Origin: Mesorhizobium sp.
GTDB taxonomy: Bacteria > Pseudomonadota > Alphaproteobacteria > Rhizobiales > Rhizobiaceae
Direction: 5' to 3'
Assembly: GCF_017306545.1 (NCBI RefSeq)
Contig: NZ_JAFKID010000017.1
Location: 62,001-126,000, forward strand
DNA: 64,000 nt
Part shown: piece by piece, positions 22,087-62,873 of the stretch
Layout of the letters: each line of letters opens with the position of its first letter
Numbering within the stretch: position 1 is the stretch's first letter
Translations under genes and position numbers: made by a program
Notes under the pieces: model-generated
The model's input: the letters and a program-made list of their open reading frames with translations, nothing else
What the model was told of the DNA's origin: nothing
Database searches by the model: none

Positions 22087-22406
22087 CCTCCCTCAGCATC
22101 GCTGGCCGGACAGCAATGGCGAGCGCAACGGGTGCCGTCAATGCGCGGCCGTCAAAAACTTTATGCTTGAAATAAAAACAGGCCGGTGCGATGGTCCTCG
22201 CATCAGTCGAGCATGGGAGGTCTCGCTGTGCCACCCGCGAGCGATGCAGCCGGCGCCTGAAGGCGCCCTTCATCGCAGTCGAACGCGGGCAGACCTGCGC
22301 ACATCCGCCCCACCCGACGCTTCACGACCGGCCGGCCCTGCCGATGCGCCCTTCGCCTCACCGGCGGAACCGCCGCAGGAAACCGGAACAGGGGGACCGA
22401 TTGAGA
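22087..22406. other. Divergent promoter region and long leader before the ligase operon
   Basis: 320 bases without a supported gene. The left part is AT-rich around 22152-22180 and carries the TTTATGCTTGAA box. The remaining 230 bases before the ligase start are GC-rich and contain an open frame without recognisable protein character. I see no convincing riboswitch, terminator or leader peptide. Confidence 0.5.
22160..22171. promoter_or_regulatory. TTTANGYTTGAA box 1 (formamidase / ligase promoter)
   Basis: TTTATGCTTGAA, an imperfect dyad of TTYAAG/CTTGAA halves in an otherwise GC-rich region. Near-identical boxes occur at 51514-51525, 54214-54225 and 62862-62873, each upstream of a gene in the anthranilate or associated pathway. 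It is probably an operator; the MarR regulator at 51670 is the suggested ligand by inference. Confidence 0.6.
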
Positions 22407-24032
22407 ATGCTTGGACCGTCAGCGCATACCGACACCTTCACGCGCGACAACCTGCCGCCGCAGGCCGAATGGCCGGACTTCCTGCTCGACGGTTTCCAGT
22501 ATCCCGATTTCATCAACGCCGGCGTCGAACTCACCGACCGCATGGTCGAGAAGGGCTTCGGCGACCATACCGCGCTGATCGGCAACGGGCGGCGGCGCAC
22601 CTACAAGGAGTTGTCGGACTGGACCAACCGGCTGGCGCACGCGCTGGTCGAGAGCTATGGCGTCAAGCCCGGCAACCGCGTGCTCATCCGCTCGGCCAAC
22701 AATCCGGCCATGGTGGCCTGCTGGCTGGCCGCCACCAAGGCCGGCGCCGTCGTGGTCAACACCATGCCGATGCTGCGTGCCGGCGAACTGGCCAAGATCG
22801 TCGACAAGGCGGAAATCTCGCTGGCGCTGTGCGACACGCGGCTGATGGACGAGATGGTCGCCTGCGCCAAGGACAGCCGCTTCCTCAAAAAAGTCATCGG
22901 CTTCGACGGCACCGCCAACCACGACGCCGAACTCGACCGCGTCGCGCTCGACAAGCCGGTGCTGTTCGAAGCGGTGAAGACCGGCCGCGACGACGTCGCC
23001 CTGCTCGGCTTCACCTCCGGCACCACCGGCGTGCCGAAGGCGACGATGCACTTCCACCGCGACCTGCTCATCATCGCCGACGGCTATGCGAAGGAAGTGC
23101 TCGGCGTGACGCCCGACGACGTGTTCGTCGGTTCGCCGCCGCTCGCCTTCACTTTCGGCCTCGGCGGGCTGGCGATCTTCCCCCTGCGCTTCGGCGCGGC
23201 CGCGACGCTGCTCGAAAGCGCCACGCCGCCCAACATGATCGCCATCATCGAAAAATACCGGGCGACGATTTCCTTCACCGCCCCCACCGCCTACCGGGCG
23301 ATGATGAAGGCGATGGACGAGGGCGCCGACCTGTCGTCGCTGCGCGTCGCCGTCTCGGCCGGCGAGACGCTGCCCGGCCCGGTCTTCGAGGAATGGGTGA
23401 AGAAGACCGGCAAGCCGATCCTCGACGGCATCGGCGCCACCGAAATGCTGCATATCTTCGTCACCAACCGCTTCGCCGACATGAAGCCGGCCTCCACCGG
23501 CAGGCCGGTCGGCGGCTACGAGGCGCGCATCGTCGACGACGAAATGAAGGACATGCCGCGCGGCACGGTCGGCAGGCTGGCGGTGCGCGGCCCGACCGGT
23601 TGCCGCTACATGGCCGACGACCGCCAGCGCGTCTATGTCCGCGACGGCTGGAACCTGACCGGCGATTCCTTCTACCAGGACGAGGACGGCTTCTTCCACT
23701 TCGCCGCCCGCTCCGACGACATGATCGTCTCGGCCGGCTACAACATCGCCGGCCCGGAAGTGGAAGCAGCGCTTCTCGCCCATGCCGACGTCGCCGAATG
23801 CGCCGTCATCGGCGCGCCGGACACCGACCGTGGCCAGATCGTCGAGGCGCATGTCGTGCTGGTCAAGGGCGCCGTCGGCGACGCGCTGATGGTCAAGCGG
23901 CTGCAAGACCACGTCAAGGCGACGATCGCGCCTTACAAATATCCGCGCTCGGTCAAGTTCGTCGAGGCGTTGCCGAAGACGCAAACCGGCAAGATCCAGC
24001 GTTTCCGCCTGCGCACGGAGGCTACAAAGTGA
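22407..24032 (+). CDS. 2-aminobenzoate-CoA ligase (benzoate-CoA ligase family)
   Basis: 541-residue AMP-forming acyl-CoA synthetase from the ATG of [18 protein letters not shown]; a TTG two codons earlier, closer to a GGGGGA site, is an alternative start. The P-loop-like motif [18 protein letters not shown] starts near residue 202; the hinge and C-terminal region carry [20 protein letters not shown], and the catalytic Lys is in [12 protein letters not shown]. It activates an aromatic acid to its CoA thioester in the cytosol. Anthranilate is inferred because tryptophan 2,3-dioxygenase overlaps its end (GTGA) and because kynureninase and aminobenzoyl-CoA monooxygenase/reductase are in the window. 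Benzoate or salicylate remain possible. Confidence 0.85.
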
Positions 24033-24865
24033 GCAAGCCCTACGATCCTTCCACGGAAGGGGCGCAGATGTCGTTCAGGGACCGCATGTCCTACAGCGAC
24101 TACCTGCATCTGGAAAAAGTGCTCGACGCGCAGGCGCCGCTGTCGACGGCGCATGACGAGATGCTGTTCATCATCCAGCACCAGACGTCGGAGCTGTGGA
24201 TGAAGCTGGCGCTGCACGAACTTGCCGCCGCCGTGCGCGAAATCCGCGCCGACCGGCTTGAGCCGACCTTCAAGATGCTGGCGCGCGTGGCACGCATCTT
24301 CGAACAGCTCAACAACGCCTGGGACGTGCTGCGCACCATGACGCCCAGCGAATACACCGAGTTCCGCGGCGCGCTCGGCCAGTCCTCCGGCTTCCAGTCC
24401 TGGCAATACCGCGCCATCGAATACATGGCCGGCAACCGCAACCTCGCCATGCTGCGGCCGCACGCCCACCGCCCCGACCTGACGGCAAAGCTGGAGGCGA
24501 TCCTTTCACAGCCGTCGCTCTACGACGAGGCGATCCTCCTGCTCGGACGCAACGGCTTCGACATCGGCGCCGAGGCGACGCGCAGCGACTGGCGCGACAC
24601 GCGCACCGAGAGCGAGGCGGTGCTCGACGCCTGGCAGGCCGTCTACCGCGAGCCGCAGCGCCACTGGATGCTCTACGAACTGGCCGAGAAACTGGTCGAC
24701 TTCGAAGACTACTTCCGCCGCTGGCGCTTCAACCACGTCACCACGGTGGAACGCATCATCGGCCTGAAGCGCGGAACGGGCGGAACCGGCGGCGTCTCCT
24801 ATCTTCGCAAGATGCTCGAGGTTGAACTGTTCCCCGAACTCTGGAAAGTTCGGACCCGGCTGTAG
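24029..24865 (+). CDS. kynA: Tryptophan 2,3-dioxygenase
   Basis: 278 residues from a GTG codon that overlaps the ligase stop by four bases and is preceded by GGAGG. It is a heme enzyme converting L-tryptophan and O2 to N-formylkynurenine. Family hallmarks are the distal-side [14 protein letters not shown] near residue 48, the proximal heme ligand His236 in [12 protein letters not shown], and the [15 protein letters not shown] loop. The C terminus [13 protein letters not shown] is complete. Its operon partner, an aromatic CoA ligase, means the products of tryptophan breakdown are meant for CoA-dependent catabolism. Confidence 0.96.
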
Positions 24866-24906
24866 ATTTCAGCAAAAACAAAAGGGAGCTCTTGGAGGAG
24901 ATCGAT

Positions 24907-26043
24907 ATGAAGAAAATTTTGACGGCAAGCATTGTCGGCCTGTCGATGACGGTGGCGGGGCTGGCCTTCGCCGAACCGGTAAAAATCGGCGTCATCACCA
25001 CGCTTTCGGGCGGCGGCGCGGGCCTTGGTGTCGACATGCGCGACGCCTTCCAGCTCGCCATCAAGCAGTCCGGCAACAAGGACATCGAGCTGGTCGTCGA
25101 GGACGACGCGCAGAAGCCCGAGCTTGCCGTACAGATCGCCGACAAGATGATCCAGAGCGACAAGGTGGACCTGATGACCGGCATCATCTGGTCGAACCTC
25201 GCCATGGCGGTGGTGCCCAGCGTGGTGGCGCAGGATATCGTCTACCTGTCGCCCAATGCCGGGCCTTCGGCGCTGGCCGGCGCCAAGTGCAACAAGAACT
25301 ATTTCAACGTTGCCTACCAGAACGACAATTTCCACGAGGCTATGGGGCAATACGCCAACAAGGACTACAAGAAGACCTTCATCCTCGCGCCCAACTATCC
25401 GGCCGGCAAGGATTCGCTGACCGGCTTCAAGCGCTACTACAAGGGCGAACTGGCGGGCGAGATCTACACCCAGGTCGGCCAGACCGACTATGCCGCCGAA
25501 ATCGCCCAGATTCGCGATTCGGGCGCCGATTCGGTGTTCTTCTTCCTGCCCGGCGGCATGGGCATCGCCTTCATGAAGCAATACGCCCAGTCGGGCGTGA
25601 ACATCCCGGTGCTCGGCCCCAGCTTCTCCTTCAGCCAGGACGTGTTGCCGGCCGTCGGCGACGCCGCGCTCGGCGTCAAGAACTCGGCCAGCTGGTCGCA
25701 CGACCTCGACAACGAGGCAAACAAGAACTTCGTCGAGGCCTTCAAGGCCGAATACAAGCGCCTGCCCTCGATCTACGCGGCGCAGAGCTGGGATACGGCG
25801 AACCTGATCGTCTCGGCGCTCGCCAAGGCCAGCGTCAAGGACAAGGACGCCTTCCGCGCCGCCCTCAAGGCGGCCGACTTCAAGTCGGTGCGCGGCGAGT
25901 TCACCTTCAACACAAACCAGCACCCGATCCAGAACATCTATGTGCGCGAGGTGGTGAAGGAAGACGGCGTGCTGACCAACAAGATCATCGCCACCGCCTT
26001 CGAGAAGCACGGCGACGCCTACGCCGATCAGTGCAAGATGTGA
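24907..26043 (+). CDS. LivJ-type ABC transporter periplasmic binding protein (aromatic acid/amino acid)
   Basis: 378 residues. A signal peptide MKKILTASIVGLSMTVAGLA is cleaved after FAEP; the mature part starts VKIGVITTLSGGGAGLGVDM, the type I fold of branched-chain amino acid receptors. A GGAGGAG site precedes the ATG. It is third gene of the ligase-tryptophan dioxygenase operon and followed by LivH, M, G and F homologues. Receptors of this family linked to aromatic CoA ligases usually bind aromatic acids, so tryptophan, kynurenine or anthranilate are the likely ligands by inference. Confidence 0.87.
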   Translation: MKKILTASIVGLSMTVAGLAFAEPVKIGVITTLSGGGAGLGVDMRDAFQLAIKQSGNKDIELVVEDDAQKPELAVQIADKMIQSDKVDLMTGIIWSNLAMAVVPSVVAQDIVYLSPNAGPSALAGAKCNKNYFNVAYQNDNFHEAMGQYANKDYKKTFILAPNYPAGKDSLTGFKRYYKGELAGEIYTQVGQTDYAAEIAQIRDSGADSVFFFLPGGMGIAFMKQYAQSGVNIPVLGPSFSFSQDVLPAVGDAALGVKNSASWSHDLDNEANKNFVEAFKAEYKRLPSIYAAQSWDTANLIVSALAKASVKDKDAFRAALKAADFKSVRGEFTFNTNQHPIQNIYVREVVKEDGVLTNKIIATAFEKHGDAYADQCKM

Positions 26044-29597: not shown

Positions 29598-30845
29598 TCA
29601 CGTCACCGCCGCCCTGACCGCGAAGCGCGGGTCTTTCCAAGCGCCTGTGTTCAGGACGTCCGCCAGCGCGTCGACCGCCTTCCACACGTCGGCATAGCCG
29701 ACATAGAGCGGCGTGAAGCCGAAGCGCAGGGTGGACGGAGCGCGGAAGTCGCCGATGACGCCGCGCGCTATCAACGCCTGCATAACGGCATAGGCGTTTT
29801 CCTGCGCGAACGACACCTGGCTGCCGCGCTTCGACCCGTCGCGCGGACTTTCCAGTTCGAGCCCGTGGCCGGCGCAACGCATCTCCACCAGTTCGATGAA
29901 CAGGTCGGCCAGCGCGATGCTTTTCTTGCGCAGCGCCTGCATGTCGACCTCGTCCCAGACGTCGAGCGCGCCTTTCAGCGCGCGTAGCGACAGGATGCCC
30001 TGCGTGCCGCACTGGAAGCGGCGGATGCCGGCATCGGCATCGTAGCCCTGCTCGAAGGCAAACGGCCGCGCATGGCCCCACCAGCCGGAAAGCGGCTGGC
30101 GCGCCTCGGCCTGATGGCGCTTCGCGACATAGATGAAGGCCGGCGCTCCCGGCCCGCCGTTGAGATATTTGTAGGTGCAGCCGACGGCGAAATCGGCACC
30201 GCAGGCATCGAGCTCCACCGGCAGGGCGCCGGCGGAATGGCACAGGTCCCACACGACCAGCGCGCCGGCGTCGTGCGCGCGCTTCGTCAACGCCGCCATG
30301 TCGCGCAGCTCGCCCGACTTGTAGTTGACGTGGTTGATCAGCACCACTGCGGCCGTGTCGTCGATCAGGTCCTCGATGGCCGGCGCGTCGACACCTTCCA
30401 ATTTAAGCTGAGCGCCCGGCCGCGTCGCCGCGACCCCCTCGGCCATGTAGAGGTCGGTCGGGAAGGAGCCGCCCTCGGCGACGATGACGTGGCGGCCGGG
30501 GCGCAGGCCCATCGCCGCATGCAGCGCCTTGTAGATGTTGATCGAGGTGGTGTCGGTGACAACGGTCTGGCCGGCGGCGGCGCCGATCAGGCGACCGATG
30601 CGGTGGCCGAGTTCCAGCGGCATGTCGAACCAACCGGCGGTGTTCCAGCTGCGGATCAGGCCCTCGCCCCATTCCTGCCGCGCCGCCGTCTCGACTTCGG
30701 CGAAGACGGCGGGCGAGGCCGCGCCCAGCGAATTGCCGTCGAGATAGATGACGCCCCGCGGCAGCACGAAACGGTCGCGCATGGGACGCAGCGGGTCGGC
30801 GGCGTCCATCGCCTCGGCGGCGGCGAGATCGATCGATCGGGTCAT
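29598..30845 (-). CDS. kynU: Kynureninase
   Basis: 415-residue PLP enzyme cleaving kynurenine to anthranilate and alanine (or 3-hydroxykynurenine to 3-hydroxyanthranilate). PLP Lys226 is in VGCTYKYLNGGPGAP, the cofactor-binding Asp200 in VVWDLCHSAGALP, and IYLDGNSLGAASPA near residue 33 is the family start. The ATG lies 11 bases after the permease stop. It is last gene of an operon with a TrpXYZ-like importer. Anthranilate is the expected product here because no 3-hydroxykynurenine or 3-hydroxyanthranilate enzymes are seen, whereas anthranilate-CoA genes are. Confidence 0.96.
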   Translation of the reverse strand: MTRSIDLAAAEAMDAADPLRPMRDRFVLPRGVIYLDGNSLGAASPAVFAEVETAARQEWGEGLIRSWNTAGWFDMPLELGHRIGRLIGAAAGQTVVTDTTSINIYKALHAAMGLRPGRHVIVAEGGSFPTDLYMAEGVAATRPGAQLKLEGVDAPAIEDLIDDTAAVVLINHVNYKSGELRDMAALTKRAHDAGALVVWDLCHSAGALPVELDACGADFAVGCTYKYLNGGPGAPAFIYVAKRHQAEARQPLSGWWGHARPFAFEQGYDADAGIRRFQCGTQGILSLRALKGALDVWDEVDMQALRKKSIALADLFIELVEMRCAGHGLELESPRDGSKRGSQVSFAQENAYAVMQALIARGVIGDFRAPSTLRFGFTPLYVGYADVWKAVDALADVLNTGAWKDPRFAVRAAVT

Positions 30846-49305: not shown

Positions 49306-50259
49306 TCAGGCACCGCCGCGCGCGGCGAGCGCCTTCAGCACCCGGCGGGTCGCCGCCACGTCCGCTGGCGGCAGGTCCGCCAGCTTTTCGGCCTCGAAGG
49401 CGTGCGCGCGGGCGACGATGCGCCCGAGCAAGGCAAGGCCGCTTTCGGTGATGGCCAGCGCGCCGGGCGGGCGCGGCGCGACATAGTTTCCGGCGACGAG
49501 TTTGGCGAGCGCGTCCTGCACGGCGTTCTCGCCGAGAAAGGTGCGCGCGGCGATCGCCTGCGCCGACGCGCAGGAGCCGGTCGCCAGGAAGGCCAGCACG
49601 CGCGACTGCGCGGTATCGACGCCCTCGGCGCGATGGTGCTCGGAAAAGGCGTCGGAAAGATAGGCGTAGGCCCGCGCCAGCAGCGGCAGGAAGAAATCGT
49701 CGCGCGGGTGGCCCGCGAACTGGAGATCGGCCTGCCGGCCCGGATGGCTGATGGCGAGCGCATAGCGCCCCTGCGCAAAGACCAGCCCGCTGCGGTCGAA
49801 GCAGGCGTAGCGCTCGACCTTACCGATGAAGACGACATGGTCGCCGCCGTCGTGTTCGCTGATCTTGCCGCATTCGAAATACGCGGCGACGCCGGCCAGC
49901 AGCGGCGCGCCGCCGAGCCCCGGCGCCCAATCGCAACCGCCGAATTTATCGGTGCCTGAGCGGGCGAAATGGCTGGCCATCTCGGTCTGCCCGGCGGCGA
50001 GAACGTTGACGGCGAAATGCGGCGCCTGCCGGAAGGCGGCCAGGCTAGTGGATTGACGCCGAAGCGACCACAGCACCAGCGGCGGCTCCAGCGATACGGA
50101 CTGGAACGAATTGGCGGTGACGGCGAAGGGGCCGCCCTCGCCGGCGCCGGAAACCACCGTCACCCCGGTGGCGAACTGGCCGAGCGCCTGGCGGAAGTTC
50201 CTGAGATCGGCGGCTGGATCGCCGCCGTGCAGCAGCAACGGGTCGGCGGCCGTCGCCAT
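49306..50259 (-). CDS. Flavin reductase fused to a MarR-like domain (C1-HPAH type)
   Basis: 317 residues. Residues ~18-170 are a flavin reductase of the HpaC/RutF fold (FATGVTVVSG, AVTANSFQSVSLEPPLVLWS, HFAVNVLAAGQ, DHVVFIGKVERY). Residues ~190-317 resemble a MarR winged-helix domain (AQSRVLAFLATGSCASAQAI, then LAKLVAGNYVAPRP and LAITESGLALLGRI). The reductase component C1 of p-hydroxyphenylacetate hydroxylase from Acinetobacter has this layout, and there the MarR-like part is an autoinhibitory effector domain. It starts one base after the luciferase-like gene and should supply its reduced flavin. Confidence 0.85.
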   Translation of the reverse strand: MATAADPLLLHGGDPAADLRNFRQALGQFATGVTVVSGAGEGGPFAVTANSFQSVSLEPPLVLWSLRRQSTSLAAFRQAPHFAVNVLAAGQTEMASHFARSGTDKFGGCDWAPGLGGAPLLAGVAAYFECGKISEHDGGDHVVFIGKVERYACFDRSGLVFAQGRYALAISHPGRQADLQFAGHPRDDFFLPLLARAYAYLSDAFSEHHRAEGVDTAQSRVLAFLATGSCASAQAIAARTFLGENAVQDALAKLVAGNYVAPRPPGALAITESGLALLGRIVARAHAFEAEKLADLPPADVAATRRVLKALAARGGA

Positions 50260-50260
50260 G

Positions 50261-51361: not shown

Positions 51362-51503
51362 TTCGAACCTCCCGTGGCCGCAAGCCCGGCCGTGCTTATG
51401 CTGCGGCGAAAGCGGCGCTGCCGCCAGCCCCGGATCAACCGCAAAGACGACAGGCGCGGATTCCCCTCCCGCCGCCAGTCGGCCCAGTCACCAATACTGA
51501 CTA

Positions 51504-51513
51504 CAGTATACAG
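51504..51513. promoter_or_regulatory. CAGTATACAR box 3 (monooxygenase / marR intergenic region)
   Basis: CAGTATACAG in the 308-base divergent gap between the luciferase-like gene (minus) and the marR gene (plus). It directly abuts the TTTATGTTTGAA box that begins at the next base. The rest of the gap shows no supported gene. Confidence 0.6.
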
Positions 51514-51525
51514 TTTATGTTTGAA
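51514..51525. promoter_or_regulatory. TTTANGYTTGAA box 2 (marR / monooxygenase promoter)
   Basis: TTTATGTTTGAA, one base different from the three other copies (T for C in the right half). It is 144 bases upstream of marR, consistent with autoregulation, and touches the GntR-type box on its left. Confidence 0.58.
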
Positions 51526-51669: not shown

Positions 51670-52233
51670 TTGACGGACGAGGACAAGACTTTGAGCGGAG
51701 CGAAGACGGGCGAGCGCGGCGAAGCCGAAGGCGTCGCCGCGACCTGGCTGGACAGCGAGACCAAGGTGCTGGAAGCGCCGCACGACCACGGCACGGAACT
51801 GAGGCTGTGGCTGCGCATGCTGACCTGCGCCACGCTGGTGGAAGCCGAGATCCGGCGGCGGCTGCGCGAGGAGTTCGATTCCACCCTGCCGCGCTTCGAC
51901 CTGATGGCACAGCTCGAACGCGCCCGCGACGGCATGGTGTTGGGCGAGCTTTCCAAGCGCATGATGGTGTCGCCCGGCAACATCACGGCGCTGGTGGAAC
52001 GGCTGGTGGAGAGCGGCCACATCAGCCGCACGACCTCGCCGACCGACCGGCGCGTGCAGATCATCGCCCTCACCCCCTTCGGCCGCACCGCGTTCAAGAC
52101 GATGGCCGACGCCCATGCCGAATGGATATCGGGGCTGTTCGCCGGCATTTCGGCCAAGGACGAGCAGGCCCTGCTCGACCAGCTCGGCGGACTGAAACAC
52201 TCCATCGTCGCCGCGCTCGGCAAGAGCGGCTGA
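51670..52233 (+). CDS. MarR-family transcriptional regulator
   Basis: 187 residues from TTG 51670; an in-frame TTG at 51691 is preceded by a better GAGGA site and may be the real start. The MarR core is clear: STLPRFDLMAQLERARDGMV, recognition helix LSKRMMVSPGNITALVERLV, and wing HISRTTSPTDRRVQIIALTP. Similar MarR proteins in aromatic acid clusters (BadR, HcaR/CouR types) respond to aromatic CoA thioesters. An upstream TTTATGTTTGAA box suggests autoregulation, and matching boxes occur before the aminobenzoate genes. 2-Aminobenzoyl-CoA is a plausible inducer by inference. Confidence 0.88.
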   Translation: MTDEDKTLSGAKTGERGEAEGVAATWLDSETKVLEAPHDHGTELRLWLRMLTCATLVEAEIRRRLREEFDSTLPRFDLMAQLERARDGMVLGELSKRMMVSPGNITALVERLVESGHISRTTSPTDRRVQIIALTPFGRTAFKTMADAHAEWISGLFAGISAKDEQALLDQLGGLKHSIVAALGKSG

Positions 52234-53275: not shown

Positions 53276-54184
53276 ATGAAACCCGACCTCAACGACCTGA
53301 ACGCCTTCGTCGCGGTGGCGCGGGCCGGCGGCTTCCGCGACGCCGCGCGGGCGAGCGGCGCCAGCGCCTCCGGCCTCAGCGAAGCGGTGCGGCGACTGGA
53401 AGCCCAACTCGGCCTGCGGCTTCTCAACCGCACCACCCGCAGCGTCGTGCCAACCGAAGCAGGCCGCGGCCTCTTGCAGCGGCTGGCGCCGGCGCTCGGC
53501 GAAGTGGACGCCGCCCTCGACGCGGTCAACGGCTTCCGCGACCGGCCGGCCGGCACGCTGAAGCTCAACGTGCCGGTCAGCGTCGCGCGGCTGGTCCTGC
53601 CCGCCGTCGTGCCGCCTTTCCTCGCCGCCTATCCCGAGATCCGGCTGGAGGTGGTGGTGGAGGAAAGCTTCGTCGACCTGGTGGCGTCGGGCTGCGATGC
53701 CGGTATCCGCTACGACGAGCGGCTCGAACAGGACATGATCGCGATCCCGATCGGGCCGCGCACGCAGCGCTTCGCCACCGCGGCGGCCCCGGCCTATCTC
53801 GACCGCCGCGGCCGGCCGCTGCATCCGCGCGACCTGCTCGGCCACGCCTGCCTGCAAGGCCGCTTCCCCAGCGGCGCGATGCCGCCGTGGGAATACGAGC
53901 GCGACGGCGAGGTGGTGCGCATCGATCCAGCCGGGCCGCTTGTCGTCGGACTCGGCGGCGGCGCCGACCTTGCCGTCGATGCGGCGGTCGCCGGCGTCGG
54001 CGTCGTGTGCCTGTTCGAAGGCTGGCTGCGCCCCTATTTCGACAGCGGCGCGCTGGAGCCGGTGCTCGAGCCATGGTGGCAGCGCTTCTCCGGGCCCTTT
54101 CTCTACTATGCCGGCCGGCGCCTGGTGCCGGCTCCGCTGAAGGCCTTTGTCGATTTCATCAGGCGCAACCAGAACGAAGAATAA
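53276..54184 (+). CDS. LysR-family transcriptional regulator
   Basis: 302 residues. Helix-turn-helix at about 5-63 (GFRDAARASGASASGLSEAV), effector domain from about 92 (GTLKLNVPVSVARLVLPAVV). This DsdC/PecT-like branch with FVDLVASGCDAGIRYDERLE commonly controls a divergent oxidoreductase. Here that is the aldo/keto reductase. It ends 117 bases before the aminobenzoyl-CoA monooxygenase/reductase gene, in the same direction, but that gene has its own upstream box and is probably under separate MarR control. Confidence 0.88.
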   Translation: MKPDLNDLNAFVAVARAGGFRDAARASGASASGLSEAVRRLEAQLGLRLLNRTTRSVVPTEAGRGLLQRLAPALGEVDAALDAVNGFRDRPAGTLKLNVPVSVARLVLPAVVPPFLAAYPEIRLEVVVEESFVDLVASGCDAGIRYDERLEQDMIAIPIGPRTQRFATAAAPAYLDRRGRPLHPRDLLGHACLQGRFPSGAMPPWEYERDGEVVRIDPAGPLVVGLGGGADLAVDAAVAGVGVVCLFEGWLRPYFDSGALEPVLEPWWQRFSGPFLYYAGRRLVPAPLKAFVDFIRRNQNEE

Positions 54185-54213: not shown

Positions 54214-54225
54214 TTTAAGCTTGAA
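54214..54225. promoter_or_regulatory. TTTANGYTTGAA box 3 (aminobenzoyl-CoA operon promoter)
   Basis: TTTAAGCTTGAA, the most symmetrical copy (TTTAAG/CTTGAA), 77 bases before the start of the monooxygenase/reductase gene in an AT-rich gap that otherwise shows no gene. Candidate MarR operator controlling the nine-gene operon. Confidence 0.62.
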
Positions 54226-54301
54226 GTTTTTTTCGGATAAGCCCATGGTTGCCATCGTCGGGCTTGCGCCTTGACCCGGCAAAGCGGCAGGAGGAAGAAG
54301 T

Positions 54302-56635
54302 ATGCGCATTGTCTGCATCGGCGGCGGGCCGGCCGGCCTCTACTTCGCCCTCCTGATGAAGAAGCAGAATCCGGCTCACCATGTCACCGTGGTCGAACGC
54401 AACCGCCCCTTCGACACCTTCGGCTGGGGCGTGGTGTTCTCCGACGCCACCATGCAGTCGATGCGCCAGTGGGACCCGGCGACGGCAGCCACCATCGAGG
54501 ACGCCTTCAACCACTGGGACGACATCGAACTGGTGTTCAAGGGCCGCAAGATCCGCACCACCGGCCACGGCTTCGTCGGCATCGGCCGCAAGAAGATGCT
54601 GAACATCTTGCAGGAGCGCTGCCTCGAACTCGGCGTGGAACTGGTGTTCGAGCGCGAGGTGCAGGACGACGGCGAATTCCCCGAGGCCGACCTCATCATC
54701 TCCTCCGACGGCGTCAATTCCCGCATCCGGGCGAAATACGCGGAAATCTTCAAGCCCGACATGCTGATGCGGCCGAACCGTTTCATCTGGCTCGGCACCG
54801 AGAAGCGCTTCGACGCCTTCACCTTCGACTTCCAGCGGACCGAGCACGGCTGGTTCCAGGCGCACATCTACCGCTTCGACGACAAGACCTCGACCTTCAT
54901 CGTCGAGACGACCGACGAAGTGTTCAAGGCGCACGGCATCGACAAGATGGACCAGGACCAGTCCATCGCGTTCTGCGAAAAGCTGTTCGCCGACACCCTC
55001 GGCGGCCATTCGCTGATGAGCAATGCGCGCCATCTGCGCGGCTCGGCCTGGCTGAATTTCGGCCGGCTGATCTGCGAGAAATGGAGCCATTTCAACGGCA
55101 ACAGCCATGTCGTTTTGATGGGCGACAGCGCCCATACCGCGCATTTCGCCATCGGCTCGGGCACCAAACTCGCCATCGACGACGCGATCGAGCTGACCAA
55201 CCAGTTCAATCGTATCGGCCACGGGCGCGAAAACATCCCGGCCGTGCTGGAAGCCTATGAGGAGGTGCGGCGCGTCGACGTCGCCCGCATCCAGAACGCG
55301 GCGCGCAACGCCATGGAATGGTTCGAGGTGGTCGGCCACCGCTATGCCGACACGCTGGAACCGGAACAGTTCATGTATTCCATGCTGACGCGCTCGCAGC
55401 GCATCAGCCACGAGAATCTGCGCCTGCGCGACCCGGTCTGGCTCGAAGGTTACGAGCGCTGGTTCGCCGAGCGCGCCGGCGCGCCCGCCTCGCCGAACGG
55501 CCATCCGGTGCCGCCGATGTTCACGCCCTATTCGGTCCGCGGCCTGAAGCTCGCCAACCGCATCGTCATGTCGCCGATGGCGATGTATTCGGCAACCGAC
55601 GGCGTGCCGGACGACTTCCACCTCGTCCATATCGGCGCCCGCGCCATGGGCGGCGCCGCACTGGTCTTCCCGGAGATGACCTGCGTGTCGCCCGACGCGC
55701 GCATCACCCCTGGTTGCCTCGGCCTGTGGAACGAGGAGCAGAAGGAAGCCTTCCGGCGCATGGTTGCCTTCGTGCACGAGAAGACGCCGGCGAAGATCGG
55801 CATGCAGCTCGGCCATGCCGGCCGCAAGGGCGCCACCAAGGTGGCCTGGGAAGGCACCGACCAGCCGGTCGAGCACGGCGGTTGGCCGCTCGTCTCGGCC
55901 TCGGCCATCCCCTATCTGCCGCATTCGGTCGTGCCGCGCGCGGCGACACGCGAGGACATGGACCGCATCACCGCGGATTTCGTGCGCGCTGCCAAGTGGT
56001 CCGACGAGGTCGGCTTCGACATACTCGAGCTGCATTGCGCGCACGGCTACCTTCTGTCCACCTTCCTGTCGCCGCTGACCAACACGCGCGACGACGAATA
56101 TGGCGGCAGCCACGAGAACCGCGCCCGCTATCCGCTGGAAGTGTTCCGCGCCATCCGCGCCGTGTGGCCGGCCGACAAGCCGATCTCGGTGCGCCTGTCC
56201 ACCAACGACTGGCACGAGGGCGGCAACACGCCGGAGGACGCCGCGATCTTCGCACAGATGTTCAAGGACGCCGGCGCCGACCTGATCGACTGCTCGGCCG
56301 GGCAAGTGGTGAAGGACGAGCATCCGGTCTACGGCCGCATGTGGCAGACGCCGTTCTCGGACAAGATCCGCAACGAGATTCAAGTGCCGACCATCGCCGT
56401 CGGCGCGATCTCCGAGGCCGACCACGCCAATTCGGTCATCGCCGCCGGCCGCGCCGATCTCTGCGCCATCGCCCGCCCGCATCTGGCCGATCCGGCTTTC
56501 GTGCTGCATGAGGCAGCGAAGGTCGGCTACACCGGGCAAGTCTGGCCGAGGCAATATTACGCCGGCCGCGTGCAGTACGAGACGGGGCTGGCCCGCGCCG
56601 CGGCGATGGCCGCTCCACCGGCGGGCAAGGCATGA
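54302..56635 (+). CDS. 2-aminobenzoyl-CoA monooxygenase/reductase (bifunctional flavoprotein)
   Basis: 777 residues in two parts. Residues 1-~395: class A FAD monooxygenase (GGGPAG at 7-12; [20 protein letters not shown] from 274). Residues ~400-770: Old Yellow Enzyme-like FMN reductase ([20 protein letters not shown]; active-site His578 and His581 in [29 protein letters not shown]). This fused layout is that of the Azoarcus evansii enzyme which hydroxylates 2-aminobenzoyl-CoA at C5 and reduces the ring without ring cleavage by a dioxygenase. Such proteins are often labelled salicylyl-CoA 5-hydroxylase; that is the main alternative. It opens the operon and overlaps the SDR gene (ATGA). Confidence 0.92.
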
Positions 56636-57414
56636 GCGGGAAAGCGCGCCACGCGCTGGTCAGCGGCGCCGGCAGCGGCATCGGTCGGGCGATCGCCCTG
56701 GCACTGGCGGCGCGCGGCCACGCCGTCAGCCTCGCCGGCCGCCGCGCCGAGCCGCTGGAAGTCGTGCGCAAGGAGATCGAGGCCGCGGGCGGCAAGGCGA
56801 TCGTTCTCGCCGGCTTCGACGTGACCGACGCCGCTTCGGTCGAAACCGGCATCGCCGGCGCCATCGGCCGCTTCGGCGACATCGCCGTGCTGGTGAACTC
56901 GGCCGGCGAAGCGCCGTCCGCACCGTTCGAGAAAACCGATCCGACGTTCTGGAACCGGGTCATCGGCATCAACCTCACCGGCACCTATCTGGTCACGCAG
57001 GCGGCGCTCGCCTCGGTGCGGCGCGCCGGCAGGGGCCGCATCGTCAACGTCGCCAGCACCGCCGGCCTGACCGGCTACGCCTACGTTTCCGCCTATTGCG
57101 CTTCCAAGCACGGCGTCATCGGGCTGACCAGGGCGCTGGCGCTGGAACTGGCACGCACCGACGTCACCGTCAATGCCGTCTGCCCCGGCTTCACCGACAC
57201 GCCGCTGCTCGACGGCGCGGTTGAAACCATTACGGCCAAGACCAGCCGTAGCCCCGACGAGGCGCGCGCGACGCTCGCCAGGGCCAACCCCCAGGGCCGT
57301 CTCGTCAGCCCGCAGGAAGTGGCCGACACCGTGCTCTGGCTCGCCTCGGAAGGGGCAAGTGCGATAACCGGCCAGGCGATCGCGGTCGCCGGCGGCGAAG
57401 TGATGGCAGGCTGA
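56632..57414 (+). CDS. Short-chain dehydrogenase/reductase
   Basis: 260 residues, classical SDR: cofactor loop [16 protein letters not shown] at 9-24, NSAG near 90, catalytic Ser and YCASK near 153, and a C-terminal VAGGEVMAG. Most likely it oxidises or reduces a hydroxy/oxo group on the alicyclic CoA intermediate made by the upstream enzyme; the monooxygenase/reductase product carries a 5-oxo group. Coupled to the upstream gene by ATGA and 14 bases before the cupin gene. Confidence 0.9.
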
Positions 57415-57428
57415 AACGGGAGGACGGC

Positions 57429-57890
57429 ATGGCTGGACAAAAAGGCGAACTGGAAAAGGGCATCACGCAGAACGGTGCCGGCTTCGAAGACACGGAATGG
57501 AACATTCTCGGGCAGCGCTATTTCCCCAAGGCGGTTTCGGACTCCGCCTTTGCCTTTGAAACCAACAGCGAACCCGGCCAGTTCGTGCCCGTCCACATTC
57601 ACCCGACGCAGGACGAGTTCATTCTCGTGCAGGAAGGACAGTTGGAGCTGAAGCTCGACGGCCAATGGTTCACCGCCAGGGCCGGCGACCTGGTGCGCAT
57701 GCCGCGCGGTATTCCACACGGCTATTTCAACAAGTCCGACAAGCCGGTGAAGGCGCTGTTCTGGGTTGCGCCGGCCGGCAAGCTCAAGGCCCTCTTCGAA
57801 GGGCTGCACAACCTGACCGACGTCGAGGAAGTGGTACGTCTCTCGGCCGCTCACGACGTCGACTTCCTGCCGCCTTCGGCAAACGACTGA
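57429..57890 (+). CDS. Cupin-domain protein
   Basis: 153 residues. The cupin motif 1 VPVHIHPTQDEFILVQEGQL near residue 56 supplies two His and a Glu for metal binding; motif 2 is near 97 (PRGIPHGYFNKSDKP). Small single-domain cupins can be dioxygenases, isomerases or storage proteins. In this operon it may act on a ring-derived intermediate, for example as isomerase or hydrolase. I have no direct evidence for the reaction. Confidence 0.82.
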   Translation: MAGQKGELEKGITQNGAGFEDTEWNILGQRYFPKAVSDSAFAFETNSEPGQFVPVHIHPTQDEFILVQEGQLELKLDGQWFTARAGDLVRMPRGIPHGYFNKSDKPVKALFWVAPAGKLKALFEGLHNLTDVEEVVRLSAAHDVDFLPPSAND

Positions 57891-57944
57891 AACAGGCGCG
57901 GCCGGCGACCGCCGGCTGCCGCCACGACAAGGGATTCCGCGCGA

Positions 57945-58787
57945 ATGACCAATCCGATTGAGGCCAAGCGTCATCCGTTCAAAGACTTTTCGCCGAAGCA
58001 TTTTCGCTTCGAGACGGATGCGGACGGGCGGGTAGCGACGATCACGCTCAACCGGCCGGAGAAGAAGAACCCGCTCACCTTCGAGAGCTATCAGGAACTC
58101 ACCGACCTGTTCCGCGCGCTGGCGCATGCCAGCGACGTGCGCGCCATCGTGATAACCGGCGCCGGCGGCAATTTCTGCTCGGGCGGCGACGTCTTCGAGA
58201 TCATCGAGCCGCTGACCAAGATGGCGATGCCCGAACTGATGGCCTTCACCCGCATGACCGGCGACCTGGTGCGGCAGATGCGCGCCTGCCCGCAGCCGAT
58301 CATTGCTGCCATCGACGGCATCTGCGCCGGCGCCGGCGCCATCATCGCCATGGCTTCCGATCATCGGCTGGCCACGCCCGAAGCGAAAACCGCCTTCCTG
58401 TTCACCCGCGTCGGGCTCGCGGGCGCCGACATGGGCGCTTGCGGCATCCTTCCGCGCATCATCGGCCAGGGCCGCGCGGCCGAGCTTCTGTTCACCGGAC
58501 GCGTGATGAGCGCGCAAGAGGGCCTTGCCTGGGGCTTCCACAACGCCCTGCACGAGCGCGACGCGCTGCTGCCCGCCGCGCAGAAATTCGCCCGCATGCT
58601 CGCAGACGGCCCATGGTTCGCGCACACGATGACGAAGAAGATGCTCGACCAGGAATGGGCGATGGGCATCGACCAGCTCATCGAATCGGAAGCGCAGGCG
58701 CAGGCCATCTGCATGGCGACCGGCGACTTCCGCCGCGCCTTCGAAGCTTTCGCGGCCAAGGCCAAGCCGGTCTTCGAGGGGAACTGA
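57945..58787 (+). CDS. Enoyl-CoA hydratase/isomerase family protein
   Basis: 280-residue crotonase-fold enzyme with an N-terminal extension of about 20 residues. Oxyanion-hole segments [13 protein letters not shown] near residue 70 and [20 protein letters not shown] near 125 are intact. The usual catalytic Glu pair is partly changed ([12 protein letters not shown] near 163), so the activity may be hydratase, isomerase or ring hydrolase. Ring-opening hydrolases of alicyclic CoA esters belong to the same family. Fourth gene of the operon, three bases before the acyl-CoA dehydrogenase gene. Confidence 0.85.
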
Positions 58788-58790
58788 ACA

Positions 58791-59984
58791 ATGTCCGACC
58801 ACGCCGCAACAGCCAGACCGCCGAGCCGCGACCATCTCGACTGGCCGTTCTTCGAGGACAGGCACCGCACGCTCACGGCCGACCTGGACGCCTTCATCGC
58901 CAGGGGCGGGTTGGGCAGCATCGACCATGCCGACGCCGACAGCGCCTGCAAGAAGCTGGTCAAGGCGCTGGGCGCCGGCGGCTTTCTGAAAGCCTGCGTA
59001 CCGGCGGCCTACGGCGGCGCGTCGGAGATAATCGACAGCCGCGCGCTCTGCCTGATGCGCGAGACGCTGGCCTATGCCGACGGGCTGGCCGACTTCGCCT
59101 TCGCCATGCAGGGTCTCGGCACCGGCGCCATCAGCCTGTCCGGCTCGGAGGAGCTGAAGCAGCGCATCCTGCCGAAGATCGCCGCCGGCGAGCTGATCTC
59201 GGCCTTCGCGCTGACCGAGCCGGAAGCCGGCTCGGACGTGGCCGCCATGGCGACCACCGCACGCCGCGACGGCGACGCCTATGTGCTCGACGGCGAAAAA
59301 ATCTTCATCTCCAACGGCGGCATCGCCGACGTCTACACCGTCTTCGCCCGCACCGGCGAAGCGCCGGGCACGCGCGGCATTTCCGCTTTCGTCGTCTTCG
59401 CCGACACGCCGGGTTTTTCCATTGCCGAGCGCATCGAGACGATCGCGCCGCATCCGCTGGCGCGCATCCGCTTCGACAATTGCCGCATTCCGGCCTCACA
59501 GCTTCTGGGCGCTCCCGGCGAGGGCTTCAAGATCGCCATGCGCACGCTGGACATCTTCCGCCCGTCGGTTGCTGCGGCGGCGCTCGGCTTCGCGCGGCGC
59601 GCGCTGGACGAAGCGGTCGCCCACGCCAAGGCGCGAAACATGTTCGGCGCCACGCTGGCAGACCTGCCGACGGCGCAGAGCACGCTGGGCGACATGGCGA
59701 CGGCCATCGACGCCGCCGCCCTGCTCGTCGCCCGCGTCGCCTGGCGGCGCGACGTGCAGAAATTGCCGATCACACGCGAGGCGGCCATGGCCAAGCTGAC
59801 GGCGACCGAGAACGCGCAATGGGTCATCGACCAGGCGGTGCAGATGTTCGGCGGGCGCGGCGTGCGCGTCGGCGAGATCACCGAAAAGCTCTACCGCGAG
59901 ATCCGCGCCTTGCGCATCTACGAGGGCGCCACCGAGGTGCAGAAACTCATCATCGGCCGCGAGCTGATGAAGACTGCAAGATAG
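58791..59984 (+). CDS. Acyl-CoA dehydrogenase
   Basis: 397 residues, FAD-dependent. Middle-domain motifs [20 protein letters not shown] near 138 and [20 protein letters not shown] near 168; C-terminal [20 protein letters not shown] and the [19 protein letters not shown] motif, where the Glu of YEG is in the position of the catalytic base. It should introduce a double bond into the ring- or chain-derived CoA ester. Electron acceptor (ETF) genes are not in the window. Confidence 0.92.
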
Positions 59985-59993
59985 GAGCCGGCG

Positions 59994-60410
59994 ATGGCGT
60001 TCCGCACCAGCCGGCCATTGCGCTTCGGGGACTGCGACCCGTCCGGCATCGCCTATTTCCCCTCCTACCTGCACCATCTGGTCGGGGTCATGGAGGAGTT
60101 CTTCGGCTCGCTCGGCTTTCCGTGGGACGCCATGATCGCCAAAGACCGTATCGGCCTGCCGACGGTGCGGCTCGACCTCACCTTCGCGTATCCCGGCTTC
60201 CACGGCGACCGGCTCGACTTCGAGCTTGCCGTGCGCAGGGTCGGCCGTTCCTCGCTGGACATGCAGCACCGCATCTCGGCCGCCGGCACGCTTTTGTGGA
60301 GCGCCGACCACCGGATCGTGGCGACGTCCACCGATACGCACAAATCCATCCCCTGGCCGGACGCGCTGCGTGCGGCGCTTGAACGGCATGTGGAGGCGAC
60401 CGATGCTTGA
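59994..60410 (+). CDS. 4-hydroxybenzoyl-CoA-type thioesterase
   Basis: 138-residue hotdog-fold protein with the 4HBT signature RFGDCDPSGIAYFPSYLHHL near residue 10, where Asp16 matches the catalytic Asp of Pseudomonas 4-hydroxybenzoyl-CoA thioesterase. It could release stalled CoA thioesters (for example 2-aminobenzoyl-CoA or a dead-end product) and so protect the CoA pool. Overlaps the Rid-family gene by eight bases. Confidence 0.88.
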   Translation: MAFRTSRPLRFGDCDPSGIAYFPSYLHHLVGVMEEFFGSLGFPWDAMIAKDRIGLPTVRLDLTFAYPGFHGDRLDFELAVRRVGRSSLDMQHRISAAGTLLWSADHRIVATSTDTHKSIPWPDALRAALERHVEATDA

Positions 60411-60798
60411 GTTCCTGCAACCGGAAGGCTGGGCCAAGCCCATCGGCTACGCCAACGGCGTCGCCGCAACCGGGCGCACCATCTTCGTCGGCGGCCAGAT
60501 CGGCTGGAACGGCCAATGCCAGTTCGAGACGGACGATTTCGTCGGCCAGGTGCGGCAGACGTTGGAAAACATCGTCGCCGTGCTCAAGGCCGGCGGCGCC
60601 GAGCCGCAGCACATCACCTCGATGACCTGGTATTTTGTCGACAAGCAGGAATATACGCAAAACCTGCGCGGCATCGGCCAGGCCTATCGCGACACCATCG
60701 GCCGGCACTTCCCGGCCATGGCCGCCGTGCAGGTGGTGGCGCTGATCGAAGACCGCGCCAAGATCGAGATACAGGCCACCGCCGTCGTGCCGGAGTAA
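60403..60798 (+). CDS. Rid-family protein (probable enamine/imine deaminase)
   Basis: 131 residues of the RidA/YjgF fold: GVAATGRTIFVGGQIGWNGQ near residue 20, QVRQTLENIVAVLKAGG near 47, VVALIEDRAKIEIQATAVVP at the end with the Glu seen in several Rid subfamilies. The Arg that binds the substrate carboxylate in RidA is not obvious (residues before the last strand read DRAKIEI), so it may belong to a Rid subgroup with different specificity. In this operon it is well placed to hydrolyse the ring enamine/imine of the 2-amino-cyclohexene-carboxyl-CoA intermediate, releasing ammonia. Confidence 0.85.
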   Translation: MLEFLQPEGWAKPIGYANGVAATGRTIFVGGQIGWNGQCQFETDDFVGQVRQTLENIVAVLKAGGAEPQHITSMTWYFVDKQEYTQNLRGIGQAYRDTIGRHFPAMAAVQVVALIEDRAKIEIQATAVVPE

Positions 60799-60802
60799 GC
60801 CC

Positions 60803-62761
60803 ATGGCGCGCTTCTCGCAGCCCGTGGCGGGCGAAATCCGAAACGGCATGCTCGTCGTGACGATCGACAATCCGCCCGTCAACGCGCTGTCGGCCGAGGT
60901 ACGCGCCGGACTGATGGCCGCGCTCGATCATGCCGAAAGGCACGGCGACATTGCCGGCCTCGCCGTCACCGGCGCCGGCCGCATCTTCATCGGCGGCGCC
61001 GACATCCGCGAATTCGGCAAGCCGCCGGTCGAGCCGCACCTGCCCGATGTGCTCGACCGTATCGAGACTTTCGCCAAGCCGGTGGTCGCCGCCGTCAACG
61101 GCGCCGCGCTCGGCGGCGGCTCGGAGGTCGCGCTCGCCTGCCACGGCCGGATCGCCGGAGAAAAAGCCAGCTTCGGCCTGCCGGAAGTGAAGCTCGGCCT
61201 GATTCCCGGTGCCGGCGGCACGCAGCGCCTGCCGCGCCTCGTCGGCAGAGCCGCCGCCATCGACATGATCGGCTCGGGCCGCAGCGTGAAGCCGGAGGAA
61301 GCCGTGCGTCTCGGCCTCGCCGACAAGATTGCCGCCGATCCCGTCGCGGCGGCGATCGAGCTTGCGCGCGGCATGGCCGGTGCGCCGCTCAGGCGTACCG
61401 GCGCGCTCGCCGTGCCGGCGACAGATACGGCCGCCGTCGAGGCGGCGGCGAAAAAGGTTCTGTCCAAGGCGCGCGGCCAGACGGCACCCGCCGAAGCGGT
61501 GCGTCTGGTCAAGGCCGCGGGCGACTTGAGCCTGAAGGCCGGACTTGCCGAGGAACGCGCGACGTTCCTGCGCCTGCGCGATTCCCGCGAGGCGGCGGCG
61601 TTGCGCCATGTCTTCTTCGCCGAGCGCGCCGCCGGCAAGGTGGAGAAACTCGACGGCGTCGCCCCGCGCGAGGTCAAGACCGTCGGCATCGTCGGCACCG
61701 GCCTGATGGGTGCCGGCATCGCCGTCGCCACGCTGACGGCCGGCTACCGCGTCATCGGCGTCGAGCAAACGGCGGAGGCGGCAGCGGCGGGTGCAAAGCG
61801 CATCGCCGACATGCTCGACAAGACGGTGCAGTCCGGCCGGCTGGCCGCCGCTTCCCGCGACGAGTGCCTCGCCCGGCTCACGGTCGCCGCCGACGCCGGC
61901 GAACTGGCGCCGGCCGACCTCGTCATCGAGGCGGTGTTCGACGACCTCGCCGTCAAGACGGGTCTGTTCCAAAAACTCGACGGCATCGTGCGGCAGGACG
62001 CCATCCTCGCCACCAACACCAGCTACCTGAACCCGGACGAGATCGCGGCGACCACCGCGCATCCCAAGCGCGTCGTCGGCCTGCATTTCTTCTCGCCGGC
62101 CAACATCATGCGGCTGACCGAAGTGGTGGATTGCAAGGCGACCGCGCCGGACGTGCTCGCCACCGCGCTCGCCTTCGCCAAAAAACTCGGCAAGCTGCCG
62201 GTCGTCGCCGGCGTCACCGAAGGCTTCATCGGCAACCGCATCTATTCGGCCTACCGCCGCGAGGCGGAGTTCATGGTCGAGGACGGGGCGGAGCCCGAGG
62301 TCGTCGACGCTGCGCTGGAAGGATACGGCTTCCCGATGGGCATCTTCGCCGTCAACGACATGGCCGGCCTGGAAATCGCCTGGGCGCGGCGCAAGCGGCA
62401 GGCGGCGACGCGCGATCCGAAGGAGCGCTATGTCGAGATCGCCGACCGGCTGTGCGAAGCCGGCCGCTTCGGCCGCAAGAGCGGGCGTGGCTGGTACGAT
62501 TATTCATCCGGCGGCCGCGCCGTCGATCCGGCAGTGACGGCGCTGATCGAGGCGGCGCGCGCCGCCAAGGGGATCGCGCCGCGTAGCTTTTCGGCCGACG
62601 AGATCGTCACGCGACTTCTGAAAGCCATGGCCGACGAAGGCAGGGCGCTGCTTGCCGAGGGCGTCGCCGCGCGCGCTTCCGACATCGACCTTGTGATGAT
62701 CAACGGCTACGGTTTTCCGGCCCACAAGGGCGGGCCGATGTTCGCCGCCGGAATAGTCTGA
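60803..62761 (+). CDS. Bifunctional enoyl-CoA hydratase/3-hydroxyacyl-CoA dehydrogenase, C-terminally short
   Basis: 652 residues. An N-terminal hydratase domain (IFIGGADIREFGKP near 70; LPEVKLGLIPGAGGTQRLPR near 130) is followed by an NAD-binding dehydrogenase domain (VGIVGTGLMGAGIAVATLTA near 295; GLHFFSPANIMRLTEVV near 427) and a C-terminal helical domain (MINGYGFPAHKGGPMFAAGI). FadB/J-like proteins normally continue for roughly 40-50 residues after GGPMF; here a stop comes at once (AAGIV), so the last helices are missing. It may still be active because catalytic residues lie earlier. It catalyses two successive beta-oxidation steps. Last gene of the operon. Confidence 0.9.
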   Translation: MARFSQPVAGEIRNGMLVVTIDNPPVNALSAEVRAGLMAALDHAERHGDIAGLAVTGAGRIFIGGADIREFGKPPVEPHLPDVLDRIETFAKPVVAAVNGAALGGGSEVALACHGRIAGEKASFGLPEVKLGLIPGAGGTQRLPRLVGRAAAIDMIGSGRSVKPEEAVRLGLADKIAADPVAAAIELARGMAGAPLRRTGALAVPATDTAAVEAAAKKVLSKARGQTAPAEAVRLVKAAGDLSLKAGLAEERATFLRLRDSREAAALRHVFFAERAAGKVEKLDGVAPREVKTVGIVGTGLMGAGIAVATLTAGYRVIGVEQTAEAAAAGAKRIADMLDKTVQSGRLAAASRDECLARLTVAADAGELAPADLVIEAVFDDLAVKTGLFQKLDGIVRQDAILATNTSYLNPDEIAATTAHPKRVVGLHFFSPANIMRLTEVVDCKATAPDVLATALAFAKKLGKLPVVAGVTEGFIGNRIYSAYRREAEFMVEDGAEPEVVDAALEGYGFPMGIFAVNDMAGLEIAWARRKRQAATRDPKERYVEIADRLCEAGRFGRKSGRGWYDYSSGGRAVDPAVTALIEAARAAKGIAPRSFSADEIVTRLLKAMADEGRALLAEGVAARASDIDLVMINGYGFPAHKGGPMFAAGIV

Positions 62762-62777
62762 AAGCCAACCTTGAAAA

Positions 62778-62787
62778 CTGTATACTG
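62778..62787. promoter_or_regulatory. CAGTATACAR box 4 (reverse orientation)
   Basis: CTGTATACTG, the reverse complement of CAGTATACAG, 16 bases after the stop of the dehydrogenase gene and 166 bases before the aminotransferase gene. With box 5 it brackets the aminotransferase promoter. Confidence 0.55.
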
Positions 62788-62861
62788 ATTTTTCCGAACT
62801 GCTCCCGGCTTGCCACGTTTCTTCGGGAAATTACGCTGATCGGACACTGTTTCGGCAGAGC

Positions 62862-62873
62862 TTTAGGCTTGAA
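62862..62873. promoter_or_regulatory. TTTANGYTTGAA box 4 (aminotransferase promoter)
   Basis: TTTAGGCTTGAA, immediately followed by a CAGTATACAG box. The order is reversed compared with 51504-51525, where the GntR-type box comes first. Candidate MarR operator. Confidence 0.6.

Follow-up and report, generated by a model that had tools for sequence, protein, structure and literature searches.

The stretch analysed here, 64,000 nucleotides of Mesorhizobium sp. (contig NZ_JAFKID010000017.1, positions 62,001 to 126,000 of the forward strand; hereafter the window), carries four intergenic copies of a 12-bp box, TTTANGYTTGAA, together with a gene for a MarR-family regulator. Its more general form, TTTANGYTTRAA, is very probably the core of the operator of this regulator, a predicted repressor of genes for tryptophan and anthranilate breakdown that would be released by an intermediate of the pathway; the binding is deduced from sequence and its conservation. 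The box and its genes probably represent a conserved MarR regulon for tryptophan/anthranilate breakdown via 2-aminobenzoyl-coenzyme A (CoA), and most comparisons below are anchored on the gene for a 2-aminobenzoyl-CoA monooxygenase/reductase (ABM). The boxes, the regulator and ABM are as follows.

22160 to 22171, plus strand: MarR box 1, TTTATGCTTGAA, exact match in the divergent gap between the formamidase and ligase genes, its place kept in relatives
51514 to 51525, plus strand: MarR box 2, TTTATGTTTGAA, exact match in the gap between a luciferase-type monooxygenase gene (minus strand, starts at 51361) and marR
54214 to 54225, plus strand: MarR box 3, TTTAAGCTTGAA, in the ABM promoter between lysR (ends at 54184) and ABM (starts at 54302), conserved before ABM in relatives
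62862 to 62873, plus strand: MarR box 4, TTTAGGCTTGAA, between a hydratase/3-hydroxyacyl-CoA dehydrogenase fusion gene (ends at 62761) and an aminotransferase gene (starts at 62954)
51670 to 52233, plus strand: MarR-family regulator, proposed TTTANGYTTRAA binder (Pfam MarR, 1.4e-10; start codon uncertain)
54302 to 56635, plus strand: ABM (NCBIfam PRK08255)

An initial annotation of this DNA had listed the four copies, placed each in a gap before a gene start and described eleven of the twelve positions as fixed in three copies. An exact scan recovers these four copies and no other in the window (mean of 0.00 in 100 dinucleotide shuffles), the description of the fixed positions is correct, and our own gene calls leave all four boxes intergenic. 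The annotation had also proposed a genome-wide scan. Over the 4,818,058 bases of the genome (99.99% complete), TTTANGYTTGAA occurs four times on the forward strand and not at all on the reverse, at the same four sites and with no intragenic copy, and the pattern read backwards occurs once. Widening it to TTTANGYTTRAA adds one own-genome site elsewhere (G000:C51), which by eye has no evident link to the pathway. A chance likeness of four AT-rich words could be argued from the pattern having been fitted to the four sites, and from its behaviour when relaxed: at up to two mismatches the window holds 11 matches against 4.9 expected, so the signal resides in the exact form. Fair tests come from relatives, and there the box is conserved in loci that were not used to define the pattern, which makes chance scarcely credible.

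Conservation was scored as TTTANGYTTRAA, exact or with up to one mismatch, within 200 bp upstream of ABM. Three samples were used: a named sample of the best 80 of 589 ABM loci from a scan of genome contigs, a class sample from alphaproteobacterial families other than this one (28 loci of the 30 fetched), and a family sample of 91 upstream regions drawn evenly from the Rhizobiaceae, none of them picked for the box. The box is found exactly in 60 of the 80 named loci and within one mismatch in 73 (0.05 and 1.55 in dinucleotide shuffles), and the class loci give 12/28 and 20/28 (0.05 and 0.80). For the family loci the figures are 51/91 and 80/91; single-base shuffling gives 0.05 and 0.66, and reversing the pattern gives 1 and 4. 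Sixty column-permuted patterns at up to one mismatch yielded means of only 1.78 (named; largest 17) and 0.73 (class; largest 9). Exact TTTANGYTTGAA stands 78-114 bp before ABM in all 24 of the related loci L037-L060, and 34 of the 56 remaining named loci have a symmetric variant, TTTAAGTTTAAA or TTTAAGCTTAAA, upstream, mostly nearer to ABM. Mesorhizobium composti (L141) has sites 1, 2 and 3 identical to those of the window and TTCAGGCTTGAA at site 4. The box also recurs in divergent formamidase/ligase gaps, exactly in four and within one mismatch in six of seven loci that were not fetched for it. Further boxes elsewhere in M. composti (L138), Mesorhizobium loti (L143) and the window's own genome (L147, TTTAAGTTTAAA) were set aside as probable chance matches, their neighbour genes showing by eye no evident pathway link.

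An expectation-maximization (EM) motif search, given no consensus and tried at widths of 12, 16 and 20, recovered at width 20 the motifs ATTTTAAGcTTAAAaTATnT from 60 less-redundant named regions and AATATTTTAaGCTTgAAATA from the 28 class regions. Motifs of width 12 scored 466 (named) and 146 (class), where shuffled input reached 42 and 32. The width-20 motifs are palindromes and indicate an operator of about 20 bp, of which the reported 12-mer is the core. Two boxes occur at any spacing in 25 of the 91 family regions, and in 21 of the 91 they stand in tandem 14-15 bp apart (for example L247, L248, L251, L258, L261 and L270), which suggests paired MarR dimers bound side by side.

The product of 51670-52233 is a member of the MarR family by both profile and predicted fold, the latter mostly helical, with the recognition helix of a winged helix-turn-helix and a beta wing. 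It scores 41.4 bits against PF01047 (curated cut-off 24.6), and its AlphaFold2 model (predicted local distance difference test, 81; predicted template modelling score, 0.72; residues 1-25 below 50) finds as best Foldseek matches the DNA complexes of MftR and PecS and the structure 3boq. Residues G103 and N104 of the recognition helix and D126, R127 and R128 of the wing are invariant across 22 aligned orthologues, and in a wider set of 118 MarR readings a few depart at these positions (for example L085 and L157). Co-occurrence was scored in 151 family genomes, with E ≤ 1e-20 for MarR and E ≤ 1e-150 for ABM. MarR is found in 88 and ABM in 89 of them, with both in 87, ABM only in two, MarR only in one and neither in 61 (Fisher 1e-38, a value that ignores shared ancestry). 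In 63 of the 87 genomes with both, no more than 5 kb separates the two genes. In many genomes the MarR orthologue adjoins the box and ABM; in a more distant cluster type it sits after ABM and a short-chain dehydrogenase/reductase (SDR) gene.

It is unlikely that the box is instead the operator of another regulator, be it the LysR (53276-54184) or GntR (47646-48362) protein of the cluster or an unlinked factor. The lysR gene does adjoin box 3 in the window, and 20 Rhizobium-type loci have their MarR gene beside neither the box nor ABM. In M. composti, however, marR, the box and ABM are adjacent and there is no lysR match at 45% identity or above, on which ground LysR was rejected as the binder. 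GntR was rejected as a binder of TTTANGYTTGAA since a different motif flanks its gene, and at E ≤ 1e-40 it is found in only 9 of the 151 genomes, against 88 for MarR and 89 for ABM. It is MarR that tracks ABM.

The boxes fall into two types. In G-type boxes the gene-facing half reads TTGAA and the dyad is broken at one position, whereas A-type boxes are fully symmetric, with TTAAA. Promoter elements are described here as sequence matches, not as mapped starts. The arrangement TTGAAN-N17-NANNNT is present in 29 of 32 G-type boxes, 24 of the 32 belonging to one related group (L037-L060) and the other eight being class loci; other spacers from 12 to 23 fit 0-3 of the 32, and at 17 none of 48 A-type boxes fits. 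Conversely, 39 of 47 A-type boxes are preceded by a TTGACA-like hexamer that starts 25-27 bp ahead of them, and none of the 32 G-type boxes has one there. The family sample gives the same contrasts, with NANNNT at 17 nt in 39/50 G-type versus 0/18 A-type boxes and the upstream TTGACA-like hexamer in 12/18 A-type versus 0/50 G-type boxes. At the ligase promoter, NANNNT follows at 17 nt in 10 of 12 box-bearing sites, which were chosen for the box and not for the -10. In the window, site 1 combines a -35-like TTGAAA (22167-22172), a 17-nt spacer and a -10-like GATGGT (22190-22195), and site 3 has TTGAAG (54221-54226), the same spacer and CATGGT (54244-54249). These contrasts suggest that symmetric and asymmetric boxes go with two promoter layouts, and the symmetry-breaking G is probably there because the right half of a G-type box doubles as the promoter -35. 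In either layout the box overlaps the predicted core promoter (-35 or -10), as in CouR-type operators.

Site 2 is less simple. The initial annotation had seen one copy at the marR gene itself, and box 2 does lie in the gap flanking marR, but it may serve the minus-strand monooxygenase gene at least as much. It overlaps the spacer and -10 of a minus-strand pair, TTGACG (51540-51535)-N17-TAAACT (51517-51512), that faces the luciferase-type monooxygenase gene. A clean plus-strand marR promoter at this site finds no support, as the hexamer at 17 nt is ACCGTT and the minus-strand pair fits better.

The exact 17-nt distance between the TTGAA of the box and a -10-like hexamer is also what a promoter element alone would give, namely a -35 that is extended upstream by AT-rich sequence and kept for sigma-factor binding, with no repressor involved. 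This we consider very improbable: A-type boxes retain the whole dyad though their -35-like hexamer lies 25-27 bp upstream, the palindrome is symmetric out to about 20 bp, and the genome has no exact copy outside the pathway. A different question is the sign of regulation. Some MarR proteins activate, according to the part of the source available (PMC9613470), and the box stands at fixed places relative to the promoter, so the same protein at the same site might act as an activator or in both ways. Both positions of the box, on the -35-like hexamer (G-type) or over the -10 region (A-type), are nonetheless those of a repressor, and activation or dual action is improbable.

Several observations weigh against MarR as repressor at this box, beyond the relatedness of most G-type boxes and the blindness of the Fisher value to ancestry. 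Within one mismatch the box was not found at 11 of the 91 family, 7 of the 80 named and 8 of the 28 class ABM loci, the named and family samples partly overlapping. At the 20 Rhizobium-type MarR loci (47-50% identical), the 1.5 kb flanking the gene on each side contain no ABM and the promoter of the MarR gene itself lacks a box, so the binder could differ there. One genome of the window's genus (G073) has ABM and the box and no MarR at 1e-20; the contig in question stops shortly after ABM. With regard to the promoters, a further 8 of 50 family G-type boxes have NANNNT at 16 nt, and sites 2 and 4 have no -10 at 17 nt (ACCGTT and TTGTCT). The -10 of A-type promoters is ambiguous, TANNNT following the hexamer at 16 nt in 32 of 39 and also at 18 (19), 21 (14) and 23 nt (19), because the box itself holds TANNNT-like hexamers. 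Even so, the conserved box, the palindrome recovered de novo, the co-occurrence and linkage of MarR with ABM and the lack of intragenic exact copies support the MarR-dimer operator that the initial annotation had suggested, and its observation is right and stronger than stated.

In the mechanism that we propose, the full operator would span about 20 bp (composite ATATTTTAAGCTTRAAATAT) and a MarR dimer bound to it would repress a tryptophan-kynurenine-anthranilate-CoA regulon. Site 1 would control the formamidase, CoA ligase, tryptophan dioxygenase and a transporter, site 3 the ABM operon, and sites 2 and 4 side genes. In the promoters of ABM and the ligase, CTTGAA, the right half of the box, would itself serve as the -35, and a repressor bound there would keep RNA polymerase out. 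A TTAAA box would lie just downstream of a separate TTGAC-type -35 and cover the -10 region, to the same effect. By analogy with CouR and FerC, the repressor would be released on binding an intermediate of the pathway, most probably 2-aminobenzoyl-CoA. The MarR boxes of sites 2 and 4 each have one base in common with a GntR-type box, and the promoters there probably read a second signal. The pathway would thereby gain a candidate regulator, operator and promoter mechanism, and control of tryptophan and anthranilate use in plant-associated bacteria becomes directly testable. The sequence alone would explain an imperfect dyad by one half doubling as the -35, the two box types offer a natural pair of promoter architectures for one repressor, and as a candidate biosensor the MarR protein would report a compound derived from anthranilate.

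Two features had escaped the initial annotation, namely the -35-like element in the right half of G-type boxes and the GntR-type box that shares a base with two of the MarR boxes. The elements of the latter system are these.

47646 to 48362, minus strand: GntR/FCD regulator, proposed ACTGTATACTGW binder
51503 to 51514, minus strand: GntR-type box ACTGTATACTGT, base 51514 common to MarR box 2
62873 to 62884, minus strand: GntR-type box ACTGTATACTGT, base 62873 common to MarR box 4
62777 to 62788, plus strand: second GntR-type box, ACTGTATACTGA, before the aminotransferase gene
48511 to 48522, minus strand: GntR-type box with one mismatch, TCTGTATACTGA, flanked by gntR and an EthD-like gene
About 48383 to 48394: weaker GntR-type box, two mismatches
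62954 to 64000, plus strand: aminotransferase, downstream of composite box 4, running past the window to about 64147

All three exact ACTGTATACTGW sites of the genome fall in the window, and beside the GntR/FCD gene there is a fourth site with one mismatch. At the same threshold the reversed pattern also gives three matches, and the number of copies therefore says little by itself; what carries weight is that all four fall within 14.4 kb. The GntR box overlaps MarR boxes 2 and 4 by exactly one base, in opposite orders. The order MarR box-GntR box was found, at up to two mismatches, at nine places in 8 of 394 family genomes (five exact, one with one mismatch and three with two; reversed control, five). 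Seven of the nine adjoin an aminotransferase gene, in five Rhizobiaceae genera (exact in two); of the other two, one lies next to a gene that resembles by eye a component of a peptide ATP-binding cassette (ABC) transporter and one, with two mismatches, beside neither. The reverse order was rejected as a separate signal: besides the window's own site, its six places comprise two forward composites read on the other strand (G474 and G604) and three two-mismatch sites without the module (reversed control, three). Among eight other family loci with this GntR (39-53% identical), a TTTANGYTTRAA box stands within 1.5 kb on either side exactly in five and with up to one mismatch in six.

The associated module (47646-51361 and 62777-64000) encodes the aminotransferase, the luciferase-type monooxygenase, a flavin reductase, an HpaI-type aldolase and the EthD-like protein, and we interpret it as a side route that leads into the anthranilate node. 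The flavin reductase (49306-50259) has a MarR-like C-terminal domain (Pfam MarR_2, 23 bits, below the cut-off of 27) and has matches in three loci of the named sample of 80, at 36% in two cases. The recurrence of the fused boxes before the aminotransferase gene in five genera suggests that the fusion was selected rather than accidental. We give an even chance to sites 2 and 4 forming a fused two-input operator, through which the module would be derepressed only if two inputs are satisfied together, its own inducer through GntR and the anthranilate-CoA node through MarR. In M. loti LU (L142, 4677-4838), a composite MarR/GntR box and a second GntR box precede a gene that by eye resembles a peptide-type ABC binding protein, a candidate uptake system for the substrate of the module.

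The pathway genes of the window, apart from ABM, are listed below.

21253 to 22086, minus strand: alpha/beta-hydrolase, putative kynurenine formamidase, its role assigned from position
22407 to 24032, plus strand: benzoate-CoA-ligase-family protein, putative 2-aminobenzoate-CoA ligase, start taken from the M. composti protein
24063 to 24865, plus strand: tryptophan 2,3-dioxygenase (PF03301, 2e-66; start approximate)
29652 to 30818, minus strand: kynureninase (TIGR01814, 350 bits, cut-off 246; the coordinates are those of the profile match, with approximate ends)
56632 to 62761, plus strand: series behind ABM, namely SDR, cupin, enoyl-CoA hydratase, acyl-CoA dehydrogenase, thioesterase, RidA and hydratase/3-hydroxyacyl-CoA dehydrogenase fusion

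The aerobic 2-aminobenzoyl-CoA pathway is marked by a fused flavin monooxygenase/Old-Yellow-Enzyme reductase with a CoA ligase nearby. Both marks are present in the window, the substrate being putative. ABM unites FAD_binding_3 and Oxidored_FMN in one protein, scores 1346 bits against NF006101 (cut-off 1078) and is 98% identical to its nearest named protein, from M. composti. The NCBIfam name is bifunctional salicylyl-CoA 5-hydroxylase/oxidoreductase; the 2-aminobenzoyl-CoA name, which comes from work on Azoarcus evansii, is preferred here in view of the reductase domain fused to the monooxygenase and of the kynurenine genes. The gene series behind ABM is beta-oxidation-like, and the putative ligase scores 360 bits against the benzoate-CoA-ligase family, just below the cut-off of 375. 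The kynurenine route to anthranilate is represented by tryptophan dioxygenase and kynureninase, with the formamidase assigned tentatively. The formamidase candidate scores above the cut-off for NCBIfam NF058665, a hormone-sensitive lipase equivalog, yet in several relatives its gene and the ligase gene are divergently oriented; the NCBIfam name may mislead. The lysR gene stands between marR and ABM in the window, where M. composti has marR, the box and ABM adjacent, and is possibly a recent insertion. A record titled Bacillus subtilis strain SK6B4 (L095) carries an ABM locus of alphaproteobacterial type with the layout of Pseudochrobactrum kiredjianiae (L096), and is probably mislabelled or contaminated.

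A literature search, mostly without subscription papers, found no regulator of the 2-aminobenzoyl-CoA pathway and no description of this regulon. In a literal text search with TTTAAGCTTGAA, the matches examined were in primers; AAGCTT is the HindIII site. The closest solved structure by sequence, 3boq from Silicibacter pomeroyi (E = 1.1e-20; 2.3e-32 with the family profile), is annotated only as a MarR-family regulator. IacR and the Variovorax MarR proteins regulate the degradation of auxin, an indole compound, in plant-associated bacteria, according to the portion of the source available (PMC9613470). MarR structures from Variovorax and Pseudomonas putida are among the fold matches of our model at 17-21% identity, and their catabolic loci differ. 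FerC of Sphingobium and CouR of Rhodopseudomonas palustris are among the CoA-thioester-responsive MarR proteins listed in a review, which describes them as MarR regulators whose DNA binding is inhibited by an aryl-CoA of the pathway (PMC5487221). They share with the present regulator a place in aromatic catabolism, theirs being that of hydroxycinnamates, and are likened to it by these descriptions and not by sequence.

The kind of system is nevertheless already known from CouR of Rhodococcus jostii RHA1. As far as the available part of the report goes, it is a MarR repressor of p-hydroxycinnamate catabolism whose releasing ligand is p-coumaroyl-CoA, and its box, cATTGA and TCAATg around a 5-bp spacer, overlaps a predicted -35 (TTGAcA) and serves two divergent promoters at once (PMC4737184). 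The structure 5cyv is named as CouR with coumaroyl-CoA in the same review (PMC5487221), and its sequence match to the MarR protein of the window is weak (E = 5.6e-5). Although pathway and box are different, both systems, so far as the description of CouR extends, place an aryl-CoA catabolic regulon under a MarR repressor, here a predicted one, with an inverted repeat that overlaps the -35.

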